64,000 bases of DNA from the NCBI RefSeq assembly GCF_002891535.1, contig NZ_PDZR01000016.1, positions 1 to 64,000 on the forward strand. The letters run 5' to 3'. The stretch is from Methylocella silvestris (GTDB lineage: Bacteria; Pseudomonadota; Alphaproteobacteria; Rhizobiales; Beijerinckiaceae). Of this stretch, positions 7,231-11,052 are shown piece by piece; the stretch's first letter is position 1; every line of letters starts with the position of its first letter. The notes beneath the pieces are model-generated. The model had not been told where the DNA came from. It ran no database searches and saw only the letters and a list, made by a program, of their open reading frames with translations. Both the position numbers and the translations under genes were made by a program.

Positions 7231-7980
7231 CTAAATCTGCCCCCACGCCAGCCGGGCGGCGATCAAGAGACAGATCGTCACGAGCAGCGGCCGGATCAGC
7301 GCCGCGCCGTTACGGATCGCCGTATGCGCCCCAAGCCGCGCGCCGAAAAATTGCGCGACGCCCATGGCGAGGCCGAGCGTCCACCAGACATGTCCGGTCA
7401 GGGCCAGCGTCGCCAGTCCGGCGAGGTTTGAGGCAAAATTGGCGACCTTGGTATGCGCCGTCGCCTTGACGAGCCCATAGCCCAGCAGCTCGACGAAGCC
7501 GAGCACATAAAAAGAGCCGGCGCCCGGTCCAAACATCCCGTCATAGCAGCCGATCAGCGGAATGATCGTCAAGGTGAACGCCCTGACGCTCATGCGGGCG
7601 CGGGATTCGAGATCGCCGATCTTCGGCGAAAAGGCGAAATAGGTCGCGATCAGGACGAGCGCGACAGGCAGCACCGCTTTGAGCCAATCGACCGGCAGAT
7701 GGGCGACGAGCGTTGCGCCCGCGACGGCGCCCGCCGCCGCCAGCGCGGCGAGAAGGCCGACCTCCCCCCATCGAATCTGGCCGGCGCGCGCATAGGTTCG
7801 CATCGCTGAGCCGGAGCCGAACGAGCTTTGCAATTTATTCGTCGCGATGGCGCTGACCGGATCGAGCCCCGCCAGCGTCAGGACGGGCAGCGTCAAAAGC
7901 CCGCCGCCGCCGGCGATGGCGTCGACGAAGCCCGCCGCAAAACCGGTGGCGACGAGCAGGGCGAAGATGGTCAGGGACAT
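7231..7980 (-). CDS. TSUP (TauE/SafE) family membrane transporter
   Basis: 249 aa, highly hydrophobic, about 8 membrane segments. The N-terminal half has GFAAGFVDAIAGGGGLLTLPVLTLAGLDPVSAIATNKLQS, the hallmark TSUP repeat, and the second half repeats the pattern with IPLIGCYDGMFGPGAGSF. These proteins export sulfite, sulfoacetate or related organic anions from the cytoplasm. The ATG at 7980 starts directly before the first helix. It ends 4 bp from the convergent fabH stop. Substrate unknown. Confidence 0.88.
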   Translation of the reverse strand: MSLTIFALLVATGFAAGFVDAIAGGGGLLTLPVLTLAGLDPVSAIATNKLQSSFGSGSAMRTYARAGQIRWGEVGLLAALAAAGAVAGATLVAHLPVDWLKAVLPVALVLIATYFAFSPKIGDLESRARMSVRAFTLTIIPLIGCYDGMFGPGAGSFYVLGFVELLGYGLVKATAHTKVANFASNLAGLATLALTGHVWWTLGLAMGVAQFFGARLGAHTAIRNGAALIRPLLVTICLLIAARLAWGQI

Positions 7981-8193
7981 AAGGCGCCGCGTGTTGAAAC
8001 GACCGGCCTAGCCCGCCGGGCGCGCGGACACAAGCGACGGCTTCGTCCGGCGGGCCCCGGTCGGCATTTCGGCTTGGGCCGTGGGGGACGGTGGCTCATG
8101 TAAAGAACGAGACGAGAATTAGACGCTCTTGATCGTAACACGGACTGTTCGCGAAGCCGGCTCACCACCGATGGTGATGGTCGCACCAACGAT

Positions 8194-8222
8194 TTTGGCA
8201 CTCGCAGAACCAGAGTGCCAAA
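8194..8222. repeat. Perfect 10-bp inverted repeat upstream of tcmP
   Basis: TTTGGCACTC (8194-8203) pairs exactly with GAGTGCCAAA (8213-8222) over a 9-nt loop. There is no T-run on either side, so it looks like an operator or RNA hairpin rather than a terminator. It lies 6 bp before the TTGACG element. Confidence 0.6.
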
Positions 8223-8251
8223 CCATGTTGACGCAGCGGTGTACCTCTGGT

Positions 8252-8266
8252 GTTCTTCGTTCGTTC
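8252..8266 (+). promoter_or_regulatory. SOS (LexA) box of the tcmP gene
   Basis: GTTC-TTCGTTC-GTTC is an exact match to the alphaproteobacterial LexA site GTTC-N7-GTTC. It overlaps the putative -10 (TGTTCT, 8251-8256) of a promoter whose -35 is TTGACG, and ends 29 bp before the ATG at 8296. Confidence 0.7.
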
Positions 8267-8295
8267 AACGCACCGTGTGCGAATCGGAGAGTTTG

Positions 8296-9231
8296 ATGAC
8301 GACGCTTGTTGAGCAAGGACATCGGTTTGGCGGCGTGTGGACCGAGCTCAAGCTCGATGCCGTCCATTACTATCTCGGTTTCTTCACCAAAGTGCTAAAG
8401 ACAACGCCGTTCGACCTCTGGTACATTGATGCCTTCGCCGGCTCAGGCAGCCGGATCGAGACACGCAATTGCGGCGGTCTGTTCGAGGGCGCGCCGGTCG
8501 AGACGACGACCGAGCAGCTTGCCGGGTCGGTTATGCGCGCCCTCTCGGTTGATCCACCATTCAAGCGACACGTCTTTATCGAGGGCAACGCCGCGCGTTT
8601 CCGCGAGTTGGACGCGATCCGCAAGGAGAACCCCGGAAAGCTGATCGAATGCCGCCACGGCGACGCGAACACCGAACTCCGCTCGATATTTGCCAGTCAA
8701 CCGTGGAGCCAACAAATCGGCGGTAGGGGCAATCACCGCGCCGTCGTGTTCCTCGATCCGTATGGCATGAACGTCGAATGGGCCACGTTGGGCCGGTTGG
8801 CGAACACGCAGGCCGTCGACGTCTGGTATCTCTTCCCCCTGCAGGCAGTGACGCGGCAGCTATCCGGCGACCTCAACAATGTGGATGCCCACAAGCAAAA
8901 CCGGCTGGACGAGATCTTCGGAACACCGCTCTGGCGCAGTGAGTTGTACGAAACGCAGGTCATCCCCGACCTGTTTGCACAGACTTTCAACACGTCGACG
9001 CGCAACGTCACTCAGTCGCAGATCGAAGCTTACGCGCGCAAGCGACTAGAAAATCTCTTCCGTTACGCGTCGGAGCCGCTACCGCTAATCGCGGATGGGC
9101 GCGGGCACCTCTTTTCGCTCTTCTGCTTGTCGAACAGTAGCAGCAATAAGGCGATCGAACTCATACAGAAAGGGGTGCACTCGACGCTGAAAAAGTTCGG
9201 GTCGGCATCTCGTCGTACGTCCGGCCATTGA
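8296..9231 (+). CDS. tcmP: Three-Cys-motif partner protein TcmP
   Basis: 311 aa from the ATG at 8296, which has GGAG 6 bp upstream; a longer frame from 8215 would span the SOS box and is rejected. Motifs resemble class I methyltransferases: DAFAGSGS (45-52) like the SAM-binding loop, FIEGN (94-98), and FLDPYGM (152-158) like the DPPY-type motif IV. TcmP proteins are defined by genomic pairing with PF07505 (Gp37/Gp68, DUF5131) proteins; here the partner is convergent and the genes overlap by 71 bp. Biochemical activity is unknown to me. An SOS box in front suggests induction by DNA damage. Confidence 0.85.
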   Translation: MTTLVEQGHRFGGVWTELKLDAVHYYLGFFTKVLKTTPFDLWYIDAFAGSGSRIETRNCGGLFEGAPVETTTEQLAGSVMRALSVDPPFKRHVFIEGNAARFRELDAIRKENPGKLIECRHGDANTELRSIFASQPWSQQIGGRGNHRAVVFLDPYGMNVEWATLGRLANTQAVDVWYLFPLQAVTRQLSGDLNNVDAHKQNRLDEIFGTPLWRSELYETQVIPDLFAQTFNTSTRNVTQSQIEAYARKRLENLFRYASEPLPLIADGRGHLFSLFCLSNSSSNKAIELIQKGVHSTLKKFGSASRRTSGH

Positions 9232-9943
9232 GTAGGCGACCGGCAGCCTTCTTGTTGCGACCGCCCCATTGCTTGAAGAAGAACGCGGTTCCGCTCTCCC
9301 GACACATCTCCTCGATCTCGACGACCCATTCCTCTCGCATCGGGCGCGCCCGCGGACCGCTTTCGCCACCGACTATTGCCCAGTCGATCTGATACAGGTC
9401 CGATTTGATGACCGAGCTGATCAGTGGCTCGAAGGAGATGAAGCGCACGGCTGCCGGCGTAGCGCGCAGGTCGCCAATGCGGCCTAGAACCGCGTCGTTT
9501 TCCACGCTCGTGCCGACCCAAACATTCGGAAGGACCGGAAATCGGGTCTGTGACAACACCTCGCGCATCCGCTCGGATCGCTTGGTCAAGACTTGGTAGG
9601 TGTGCCGGGGCGTCCGCTTCATGACGCTCCACACCTCGAAGATGAAATCTTCTTCGACTGCAGGGTGAAATAGATCGGACATCGAGTTAACGAAGACGGT
9701 GCGCGGCGCGCGCCAGGTCAGCGGCGCCGACAGCGAGCGCTCATCCTGAACGATCTTACCGGTCCAGACATAGCGACCGCCGCTCTTACGAGTGAGGCCT
9801 TGGTACTTGGGCATGCCCATGGATTCGAGACGCGCCGCCATGCGCATGGCATAGCAGTTCGTACAACCTGAAGTTGCGACCGTGCATCCGGCGACAGGAT
9901 TCCACGTCACATCCGTCCATTCGATTGGCGTCAGCTGCGCCAC
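9161..9943 (-). CDS. Three-Cys-motif DUF5131 / phage Gp37-Gp68 family protein
   Basis: 260 aa. The start is GTG at 9943 with GGAGG 7 bp upstream, and it gives the family N-terminus IEWTDVTWNPVAGC. Cys20, Cys27 and Cys30 form a C-x6-C-x2-C cluster that could hold an iron-sulfur centre. Other family blocks are VFVNSMSDLFHPAV, VWVGTSVEN, RFISFEPLI, VGGESGPRARPM and FFFKQWGG. The fold has been thought radical-SAM-like, but that is inference. It partners TcmP, overlapping it tail-to-tail by 71 bp. A second SOS box lies 17 bp before the start codon. Despite the phage-derived name, no phage genes are nearby. Confidence 0.88.
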   Translation of the reverse strand: MAQLTPIEWTDVTWNPVAGCTVATSGCTNCYAMRMAARLESMGMPKYQGLTRKSGGRYVWTGKIVQDERSLSAPLTWRAPRTVFVNSMSDLFHPAVEEDFIFEVWSVMKRTPRHTYQVLTKRSERMREVLSQTRFPVLPNVWVGTSVENDAVLGRIGDLRATPAAVRFISFEPLISSVIKSDLYQIDWAIVGGESGPRARPMREEWVVEIEEMCRESGTAFFFKQWGGRNKKAAGRLLNGRTYDEMPTRTFSASSAPLSV

Positions 9944-9960
9944 GCACTCGCCTCCAAATA

Positions 9961-9975
9961 GAACAAAAGCGGAAC
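9961..9975 (-). promoter_or_regulatory. SOS (LexA) box of the DUF5131 gene
   Basis: On the plus strand GAAC-AAAAGCG-GAAC, i.e. GTTC-N7-GTTC on the coding strand, an exact alphaproteobacterial LexA site. It ends 17 bp upstream of the GTG start and 5 bp from the GGAGG. A GTGACA -35-like hexamer lies at 9982-9987. Confidence 0.7.
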
Positions 9976-10276
9976 ATACATTGTCACCGCCCCTTTGTCT
10001 CGCACTATCGCTCGAATGGCCCGTTGTAGAAAGGGACGCGTCGATCGAAGCTCAACTGCGGTTTCCATGGTAGAAGGGGAGATGACTCCTCGTGGTTGCC
10101 ACTAGCCAGTTAAAGGAGACGGTGAGGCGCGCGCAGCAGTGCCGCTCGCACACATCCACGCAACACTGGCGGCGAACTCCGCATGCGCGATCGACGGCTT
10201 CTGAGGTGCTGATCAAGCGCAAAGCCGCGTTTTCGCCGACAAGCGAAATTCAGACTGGGACCACGCCGCGCTTTGC
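9976..10276. other. Intergenic, no gene recognised
   Basis: Region between the DUF5131 promoter and the end of the ankyrin gene. Codon usage of the open frames is not gene-like and no hairpin with T-tail was seen. It may be the edge of the inserted TcmP/DUF5131 module. Confidence 0.4.
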
Positions 10277-10738
10277 TCAAACACCCGCCCGCACCCCGCG
10301 CCCGCGCAAAAGATTGAGGCATTCGAGGCTCGCCGCGAGGTCGAGGGCGGTCAGGCCGTCCTGCGATTCCAGCGCCAGATTGGCGCCCGCCGCAATGAGG
10401 CGCGCGAGCGCGGCCGGCTTGCCGGCCGAGGCGGCGTACATCAGCGCGGTGAAGCCATTCTCGTTCTGGCTGTCGAGGTCGATCCCGGCCGCCGCGAGCG
10501 CGTCGACCATGGCCGCATGGTCGCCAACGCAGGCGAGCCATAAAGCGGTGTTGCCGTCGCCATTGCGCGTGTTGAGCTTTGCCCCGGCGGCGATCAGGGC
10601 CCGCGCCGCGTCGCAGTCGCCGTCAAGACTCGCGCGCATCAACGGCGTCAGGGCGCCGCCGGGCGCGCCATTGACGTCGGCAAAGCCATGCGAAGCAAGA
10701 AAAGCCCGCAGCCCGTCGTCAAGCCCAGCTTCAGTCAC
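10277..10738 (-). CDS. Ankyrin-repeat protein
   Basis: 153 aa, made almost entirely of four ankyrin repeats: for example LTPLMRASLDGDCDAARALIAAGAKLN, NTALWLACVGDHAAMVDALAAAGIDLD and FTALMYAASAGKPAALARLIAAGANL. No signal peptide. The GTG start at 10738 overlaps the TGA of the preceding rhodanese gene (GTGA, 4 bp), which indicates translational coupling; a longer TTG start at 10759 is less likely. Ankyrin proteins mediate protein-protein contacts; the target is unknown, but coupling suggests a role with the sulfurtransferase. Confidence 0.85.
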   Translation of the reverse strand: MTEAGLDDGLRAFLASHGFADVNGAPGGALTPLMRASLDGDCDAARALIAAGAKLNTRNGDGNTALWLACVGDHAAMVDALAAAGIDLDSQNENGFTALMYAASAGKPAALARLIAAGANLALESQDGLTALDLAASLECLNLLRGRGVRAGV

Positions 10739-11052
10739 CGCGGCCGCCGGTTGGCCCAAGCCTCGAAGCCGCCGTCGAGACTATAGACGTCGGAAAAGCC
10801 GAAATCGCTCAGGATGCGCGCATATTCCTGACTGGAATTGCCGTGATAGCAGCAGATCAGGATCGGCGCCGTCTTCGGCGTCGCCATGATCACATCGCCA
10901 AGCGTCTCACCGGAGAGATGACGCGCGTCCTCGATATGTCCGGCGCGGTAGCTGTTGAGATCGCGCACGTCATAAACAATCGCGCCGCCCTGCGCGAGCA
11001 GCGCCTCGGCCTCCGCGACGCCGATGCGGCGAAATGTGCTGGTCTGCGTCAT
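10735..11052 (-). CDS. glpE: Rhodanese-domain thiosulfate sulfurtransferase, GlpE type
   Basis: 105 aa, a single rhodanese domain. The active-site loop CYHGNSS (Cys68) is the six-residue loop typical of GlpE; VYDVRDLNSYRAGHIEDARHL and DGGFEAWANRRP flank it as in the family. It transfers sulfane sulfur from thiosulfate to cyanide or thiol acceptors in the cytosol. The ATG at 11052 has AGGAGG just upstream. Its stop overlaps the GTG start of the ankyrin gene. A Rieske-protein gene lies 51 bp upstream on the same strand, so the three may form one operon. Confidence 0.88.
   Translation of the reverse strand: MTQTSTFRRIGVAEAEALLAQGGAIVYDVRDLNSYRAGHIEDARHLSGETLGDVIMATPKTAPILICCYHGNSSQEYARILSDFGFSDVYSLDGGFEAWANRRPR

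Follow-up and report, generated by a model that had tools for sequence, protein, structure and literature searches.

LexA-type boxes accompany the leading gene of a mobile pair, tcmP and DUF5131, with a predicted methyltransferase and a predicted radical SAM enzyme as products

TcmP and DUF5131 proteins are encoded by common accessory genes, and no function has been found for either so far. The two genes together have the same content as PDC-M41, a system in PADLOC whose output gives neither function nor regulation. Here we describe such a pair in a window of 64,000 nucleotides from Methylocella silvestris (NZ_PDZR01000016.1, positions 1 to 64,000), adding SOS boxes, predicted folds and a reading as part of the DNA-damage response. 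No paper naming PDC-M41 was found in the literature, and among the matches listed none dealt with how the pair works or with its regulation by the SOS response, subscription titles lying outside the scope of the search.

On the DUF5131 side, the closest described genes are the SplB-type and PA0069-family radical S-adenosylmethionine (SAM) genes of SOS regulons: spore photoproduct lyase has the solved fold nearest to that of DUF5131, and PA0069-family genes carry the same box. SplB has been described as SOS regulated in several species (PMC8565304), the Streptomyces LexA regulon includes an unnamed radical SAM protein, vnz_31145 (PMC9380542), and for Caulobacter, GTTCN7GTTC has been reported as the SOS motif (PMC12700426). 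DUF5131 differs from spore photoproduct lyase/SplB and PA0069 by its C-x6-C-x2-C cluster, an identity of only 9-10% and the lack of a Pfam Radical_SAM match; in addition, it often has a methyltransferase partner, although solo DUF5131 genes, mostly longer, exist too. Similarity to the Radical SAM mobile pair A/B (TIGR04471/TIGR04470) stays below the family cut-offs, DUF5131 matching pair A at 64.9 bits (cut-off 355) and a PA0069-family protein matching pair B at 107 bits (cut-off 410); by name, a mobile pair consists of two radical SAM proteins, whereas here the partner is a methyltransferase. On the TcmP side, RlmJ (23S rRNA A2030 N6-methyltransferase) and Trm1 (tRNA G26 methyltransferase) share 11-13% identity with TcmP. 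They are housekeeping enzymes whereas tcmP is a mobile accessory gene, and RlmJ-type proteins show DPSYE/DPPFE where TcmP has DPYG.

A sequence-only reading of the window had placed an exact GTTC-N7-GTTC site just upstream of each of the two genes, and had described the genes as convergent with overlapping ends. Both boxes were recovered at their positions as exact matches, the sole two in the 64 kb on either strand, and the overlap was confirmed (Table 1). The box before tcmP lies 29 nt upstream of the ATG at 8296, while that before the DUF5131 gene ends 17 nt upstream of its GTG start. We set the tcmP start at this ATG because the closest homologue, at locus L061, begins about there; the list of open reading frames opens tcmP at a GTG at 8215, and that frame would read through the box. 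The number of sites says little: 1.79 are expected in a shuffled window and at least two occurred in 55 of 100 shuffles, so that the in-window count alone is no evidence, and window-only statistics were dropped as an argument for the boxes. Genome-wide, 95 matches were found versus 118 for the reversed control pattern, which makes the pattern by itself weak. When these 95 exact sites were scored with a matrix built from other boxed units, the DUF5131 box ranked 19th and the tcmP box 23rd. What lies beyond chance is the position of the boxes, not their number.

Conservation beside homologous pairs, which the sequence-only reading had named as a check, was then assessed. The order contributed 39 TcmP matches over the family cut-off (297 genomes searched), the phylum 24 (398 genomes) and the class 29 (385 genomes), some genomes being shared, and named genome and plasmid loci were added. 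We excluded L036, which is the place already represented by L067, L062, which lies on the contig of L051, L150 as a phage locus, and weak RlmJ-type matches. Both genes were present in 76 of the resulting 80 alphaproteobacterial loci. DUF5131 came first, followed by tcmP on the same strand, in 45 loci (one with a gap too long for an operon); tcmP came first in 12, the genes were convergent in 14, four loci had two tcmP genes, one (L057) had tcmP split by an internal stop, and four had tcmP alone, some of them cut by contig ends. Gene starts were taken from the profile alignment (for the window's own tcmP this start falls later than ATG 8296), and boxes were sought in either orientation from -150 to +15. 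Leaders with less than 100 nt upstream were dropped from the leader and second-gene counts, as were genes whose first 150 residues, compared without alignment, were more than 90% identical to those of a gene already counted.

The exact box was found before 34 of 91 unit-leading genes (22/55 DUF5131 and 12/36 tcmP) and before none of 57 second genes (Fisher, 6e-9). Control spacings of 2-6 and 8-13 gave 0-2 boxed leaders of 91 (6e-10 against the best other spacing), permuted half-sites gave 0-1, and shuffled upstream regions gave a mean of 0.42 with a maximum of 2 in 200. With near-copies kept, loci led by DUF5131 carried the box before DUF5131 in 20 of 45 cases and before the trailing tcmP in 0 of 44, and loci led by tcmP carried it before tcmP in 7 of 12 and before the trailing DUF5131 in 0 of 12. 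The box moves with whichever gene leads the unit. Boxed units occur at 31 genome loci of the window's order and class, which carry 25 family labels, and also at L061, a relative in a Sphingomonas metagenome-assembled genome which, like the window, has both boxes, at 70% protein identity. Thymine occupies spacer positions 5, 6 and 7 in 31, 29 and 30 of the 34 boxes, and a leave-one-out matrix at a 1% shuffle threshold scored 41 of 91 leaders and one of 57 second genes. When the box label was mapped onto a 74-row tree of DUF5131, 18 changes were needed versus 24.3 for shuffled labels, a value as low being reached in 3-4 of 500 shuffles; the box is clustered on this tree, with several gains or losses. 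As regards membership of the SOS regulon, the unit has a box upstream, and this box is absent before internal genes and conserved beside orthologues, though only in part. A lack of conserved boxes, which would have refuted the sequence-only reading, was not what the comparison showed, and its interpretation is supported.

Two positive controls and one contrasting set were available, the former searched over 300 nt from the match start in the best 30 loci of 101 genomes each, too-short ones dropped. A box preceded recA in 16 of 27 loci (other spacings, 0-2); for the PA0069-family radical SAM gene the figure was 22 of 29 in the order (0-1), and both shares exceed that of the pair. Boxes such as GTTCTTGTTTTGTTC and GTTCTTGATTTGTTC occur letter for letter in both PA0069-family genes and tcmP/DUF5131 units. 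DUF5131 genes of the order genomes (297 searched) with no tcmP neighbour were boxed in one of 27 loci (Fisher, 5e-4 versus the pair), in a sample made up of 8 loci from the genome search and 20 fetched places rather than every solo match; L360 was removed from these 28 as it proved to be paired with a diverged tcmP, and boxed. The window's genome encodes lexA, and GTTC-N7-GTTC also precedes its recA, yifB, parC, an rmuC-like gene (below its cut-off), an SRAP gene identified by Pfam (L108) and a PA0069-family, SplB-like radical SAM gene (L107, C26:31629). With L107 and DUF5131 both boxed, this genome has two boxed lyase-like genes.

Table 1. Positions of the pair, its boxes and its conserved motifs in the 64,000-nt window
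Feature	Position	Strand	Details
LexA-type SOS box before tcmP	8252..8266	+	GTTCTTCGTTCGTTC, exact GTTC-N7-GTTC match
LexA-type SOS box before DUF5131 gene	9961..9975	-	GTTCCGCTTTTGTTC, exact GTTC-N7-GTTC match
tcmP	8296..9231	+	311 aa; coordinates include the stop codon
DUF5131 gene	9161..9943	-	260 aa; coordinates include the stop codon
Overlap of the 3' ends of tcmP and DUF5131 gene	9161..9231		71 bp
Accessory slot holding both genes	8053..10226		from flank comparison with a same-genus genome
TcmP motif I region, DAFAGSG, residues 45-51	8428..8448	+	D45, A48 and G49 invariant (32-row alignment)
TcmP motif IV, DPYG, residues 154-157	8755..8766	+	D154 and P155 invariant
DUF5131 three-Cys cluster, C20-x6-C27-x2-C30	9854..9886	-	all three invariant
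DUF5131 GGESG, residues 192-196	9356..9370	-	invariant

The window TcmP matches TIGR04474 (163 bits; cut-off, 53) and PADLOC PDC-M41A. Its methyltransferase-like motifs had been pointed out from the sequence, and predicted structures agree, placing it with the RlmJ/Trm1-like class I SAM-dependent type: the model has a Rossmann methyltransferase fold with the acidic residues of motifs I and IV. TcmP is very likely a methyltransferase. It does not belong to the RlmJ family by PF04378, which did not match the window protein and matched two of 69 members weakly (best, 0.018). Weak TIGR04474 matches in many proteobacteria (L094-L099, L147) resemble housekeeping RlmJ, one of them being confirmed by Pfam, and TcmP counts made without the family cut-off are overstated. 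In four of five long TcmPs scanned (365-422 aa; L032, L077, L128 and L144), a C-terminal stretch matched GMT-wHTH, over the cut-off only in L128.

The window DUF5131 protein matches PF07505 (314 bits) and the PADLOC models PDC-M41B and PDC-M30B. The C-x6-C-x2-C cluster described from the sequence is present, and predicted structures agree with a three-Cys enzyme class, the model showing a radical SAM partial TIM barrel. The invariant GGESG of DUF5131 may correspond to the GGE-type SAM-binding motif of radical SAM enzymes. The nearest solved fold to the predicted structure was spore photoproduct lyase, more than 2 Z units above RlmN; this fold comparison was a second look by VIA-align at Foldseek's top 1000, so families outside that list may also match. 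A search of PDB sequences with the DUF5131 profile gave no match. We consider it highly probable that DUF5131 is a radical SAM enzyme. Pfam GP88 was weakly matched by 45 of 65 DUF5131 proteins (alignment A4; best, 2.2e-6; window protein, 0.0046) and is perhaps a distant relative of the DUF5131 fold.

The pair is mobile. Among 90 convergent pairs drawn from genomic, plasmid, phage and viral loci, with near-copies kept, 86 have overlapping 3' ends. In a same-genus genome (L374), whose flanks match those of the window's module at 87.8% and 86.3% identity, the module is replaced by a YkuD L,D-transpeptidase gene, which marks the place as an accessory slot. Genes flanking the slot were named by eye from their translations as TauE-like and ankyrin-like; direct repeats that could mark insertion ends at the flanks were short, and none was convincing. 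Over the cut-offs, DUF5131 was found in 61 and TcmP in 39 of the 297 order genomes. DUF5131 relatives occur in 408 plasmid and 157 phage records, a TcmP relative is encoded in 77 stretches of viral contigs, and the pair is present in viral contigs and in Synechococcus phage Ssp-JY39.

From these computed results (the boxes and their conservation, the pairing, the folds and the conserved motifs), we propose that a mobile two-enzyme cassette under LexA control is the best explanation, with a probability of roughly 0.55. In an undamaged cell, LexA would sit on the box before each gene and repress it; upon DNA damage, RecA-driven cleavage of LexA would release tcmP and DUF5131 together. DUF5131 would act as a spore-photoproduct-lyase-like radical SAM enzyme: with a [4Fe-4S] cluster bound by C20, C27 and C30 it would cleave SAM and so start radical chemistry, the target being a nucleobase that is damaged or carries a special mark. 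TcmP, an N-methyltransferase of RlmJ/Trm1 type with SAM as the donor, would then add a methyl group to an exocyclic amine, either of that nucleic acid or of a linked one, thereby finishing or marking the product. LexA binding and induction of the pair are to be expected with high confidence, action of both proteins on nucleic acid is probable, and a role in repair or damage-linked modification, rather than defence, is slightly favoured. The parts fit a LexA-repressed, damage-induced, SAM-using pair, most likely for lesion repair or a base-modifying step. A bolder and distinctly tentative version sees in the pair an SOS effector of a new type: two SAM-using enzymes, one photoproduct-lyase-like and one RlmJ-like, would act in turn on one lesion for direct reversal or base marking, and such a cassette would have travelled on plasmids and phages and come under the host LexA through whichever gene leads. 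With the link to the damage response and the two enzyme folds, what was an orphan candidate for defence becomes a repair or modification pathway that can be tested, with pointers to the stress to apply, the residues to change and the products to seek. If the proposal is true, a radical SAM and methyltransferase route would be added to the SOS response, and it would suggest a role in the damage response for some candidate phage-defence genes.

Several observations weigh against this proposal. As for the boxes, 57 of the 91 leaders lack an exact one, and 50 still lack one once inexact boxes are allowed; in convergent loci, the window's own type, each of the two genes is boxed just 3 times in 14, and no box was found at L067 or at six alphaproteobacterial plasmid loci (L151-L156). 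Leaders of the pair are boxed less often than recA (Fisher, 0.049), and subfamily and pairing are not separated in the solo control, because solo DUF5131 genes are mostly longer proteins. In a first set from outside Alphaproteobacteria, neither CTGT-N8-ACAG nor GAAC-N4-GTTC preceded any of 24 leaders within 150 nt. As for the enzymes, the canonical C-x3-C-x2-C is absent from DUF5131, which has the invariant C-x6-C-x2-C instead, and hhalign sets this cluster on that of PA0069 only weakly (24%), with a three-residue insertion. Pfam Radical_SAM (PF04055) was not among the 16 families matched by 65 DUF5131 members in a scan at E up to 1, in which HMMER filters drop most weak matches. The second-best fold for the predicted DUF5131 structure is viperin, and the likeness to RlmJ, Trm1 and RlmN suits RNA as much as DNA. 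Finally, the pair stands in PADLOC as a candidate for defence, and no experiment bearing on its role was found in the literature.

The strongest alternative, possible and nonetheless unlikely in our view, is that the pair is an anti-phage cassette that modifies or attacks invader nucleic acid or nucleotides, the SOS box arming it upon damage from phage entry or prophage induction. Defence stays a candidate because of the PDC-M41 label, both of whose PADLOC models are matched by adjacent genes, the defence-type neighbours and the likeness to viperin, an antiviral enzyme. Such neighbours were seen in four of seven annotated plasmid records (McrC/AAA, DEAD/DEAH helicases in two records, Abi and ISP), and in S. 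meliloti a TcmP gene is reported near Hna (PMC12445080). However, the candidate label reflects guilt by embedding, the pair is also found in phages, the closest structural matches are to a lyase for DNA lesions and to RNA methyltransferases, and three of the six boxless plasmid loci are among those with defence-type neighbours. RNA likewise stays a candidate target because TcmP resembles RNA methyltransferases, and with an RlmN-like fold also near DUF5131, the two enzymes could modify or repair tRNA or rRNA under genotoxic stress, for example after a ribotoxin; this we find doubtful, since the best match of DUF5131 is a DNA-lesion enzyme well above RlmN and LexA control fits DNA damage best. 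That the boxes serve another regulator or arose by chance, leaving the module outside the organism's SOS regulon, is very improbable: the in-window count equal to expectation and the modest ranks of the two sites speak for it, but the conservation holds against spacing and position controls, PA0069-family genes have identical box letters, and L061 keeps both boxes.

Beyond the Alphaproteobacteria, we looked at a wider set (14 of the first 16 loci and the class members of G431) over 200 nt. CTGT-N8-ACAG preceded two of 42 leaders (other spacings, 0-1), and GTTC repeats at spacings 7 and 8 occurred twice each, that is, at background. The two boxed leaders were scored against what we take to be the 20-position consensus: the box before tcmP of L405, TACTGTATATAAGAACAGTA, agrees at 17 of 20 positions, with a score unreached in 3000 shuffled stretches, and that before DUF5131 of L082 agrees at 16 of 20, with a score likewise unreached by shuffles, yet lies at -172. 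A second CTGT-N8-ACAG lies inside tcmP of L405. SOS wiring of the pair may have arisen more than once, on this thin evidence. In viral contigs with the pair, 6 of 125 leaders had GTTC-N7-GTTC (other spacings, 0-2), against none of 48 solo genes, which is not significant. Among 32 viral genes in second position, three, each a DUF5131 gene, were preceded by GAAC-N4-GTTC, presumably the Gram-positive type of SOS box; in these contigs (L250, L252 and L275) DUF5131 lies behind tcmP, with the motif 45-73 nt upstream.

Rfam gave no match over 7500-11000, and a tRNA scan gave none in the window. Elsewhere in its genome, three paralogous proteins of 95-96 aa (L101, C11:371710; L012, C4:97181; L102, C11:682878) have a strong box 11-18 nt before the ATG; two of the three were searched against Pfam, with no match. 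They form a candidate family of small SOS-induced proteins. The small gene of L012 is followed by a second SRAP gene, some 580 nt away from the box.
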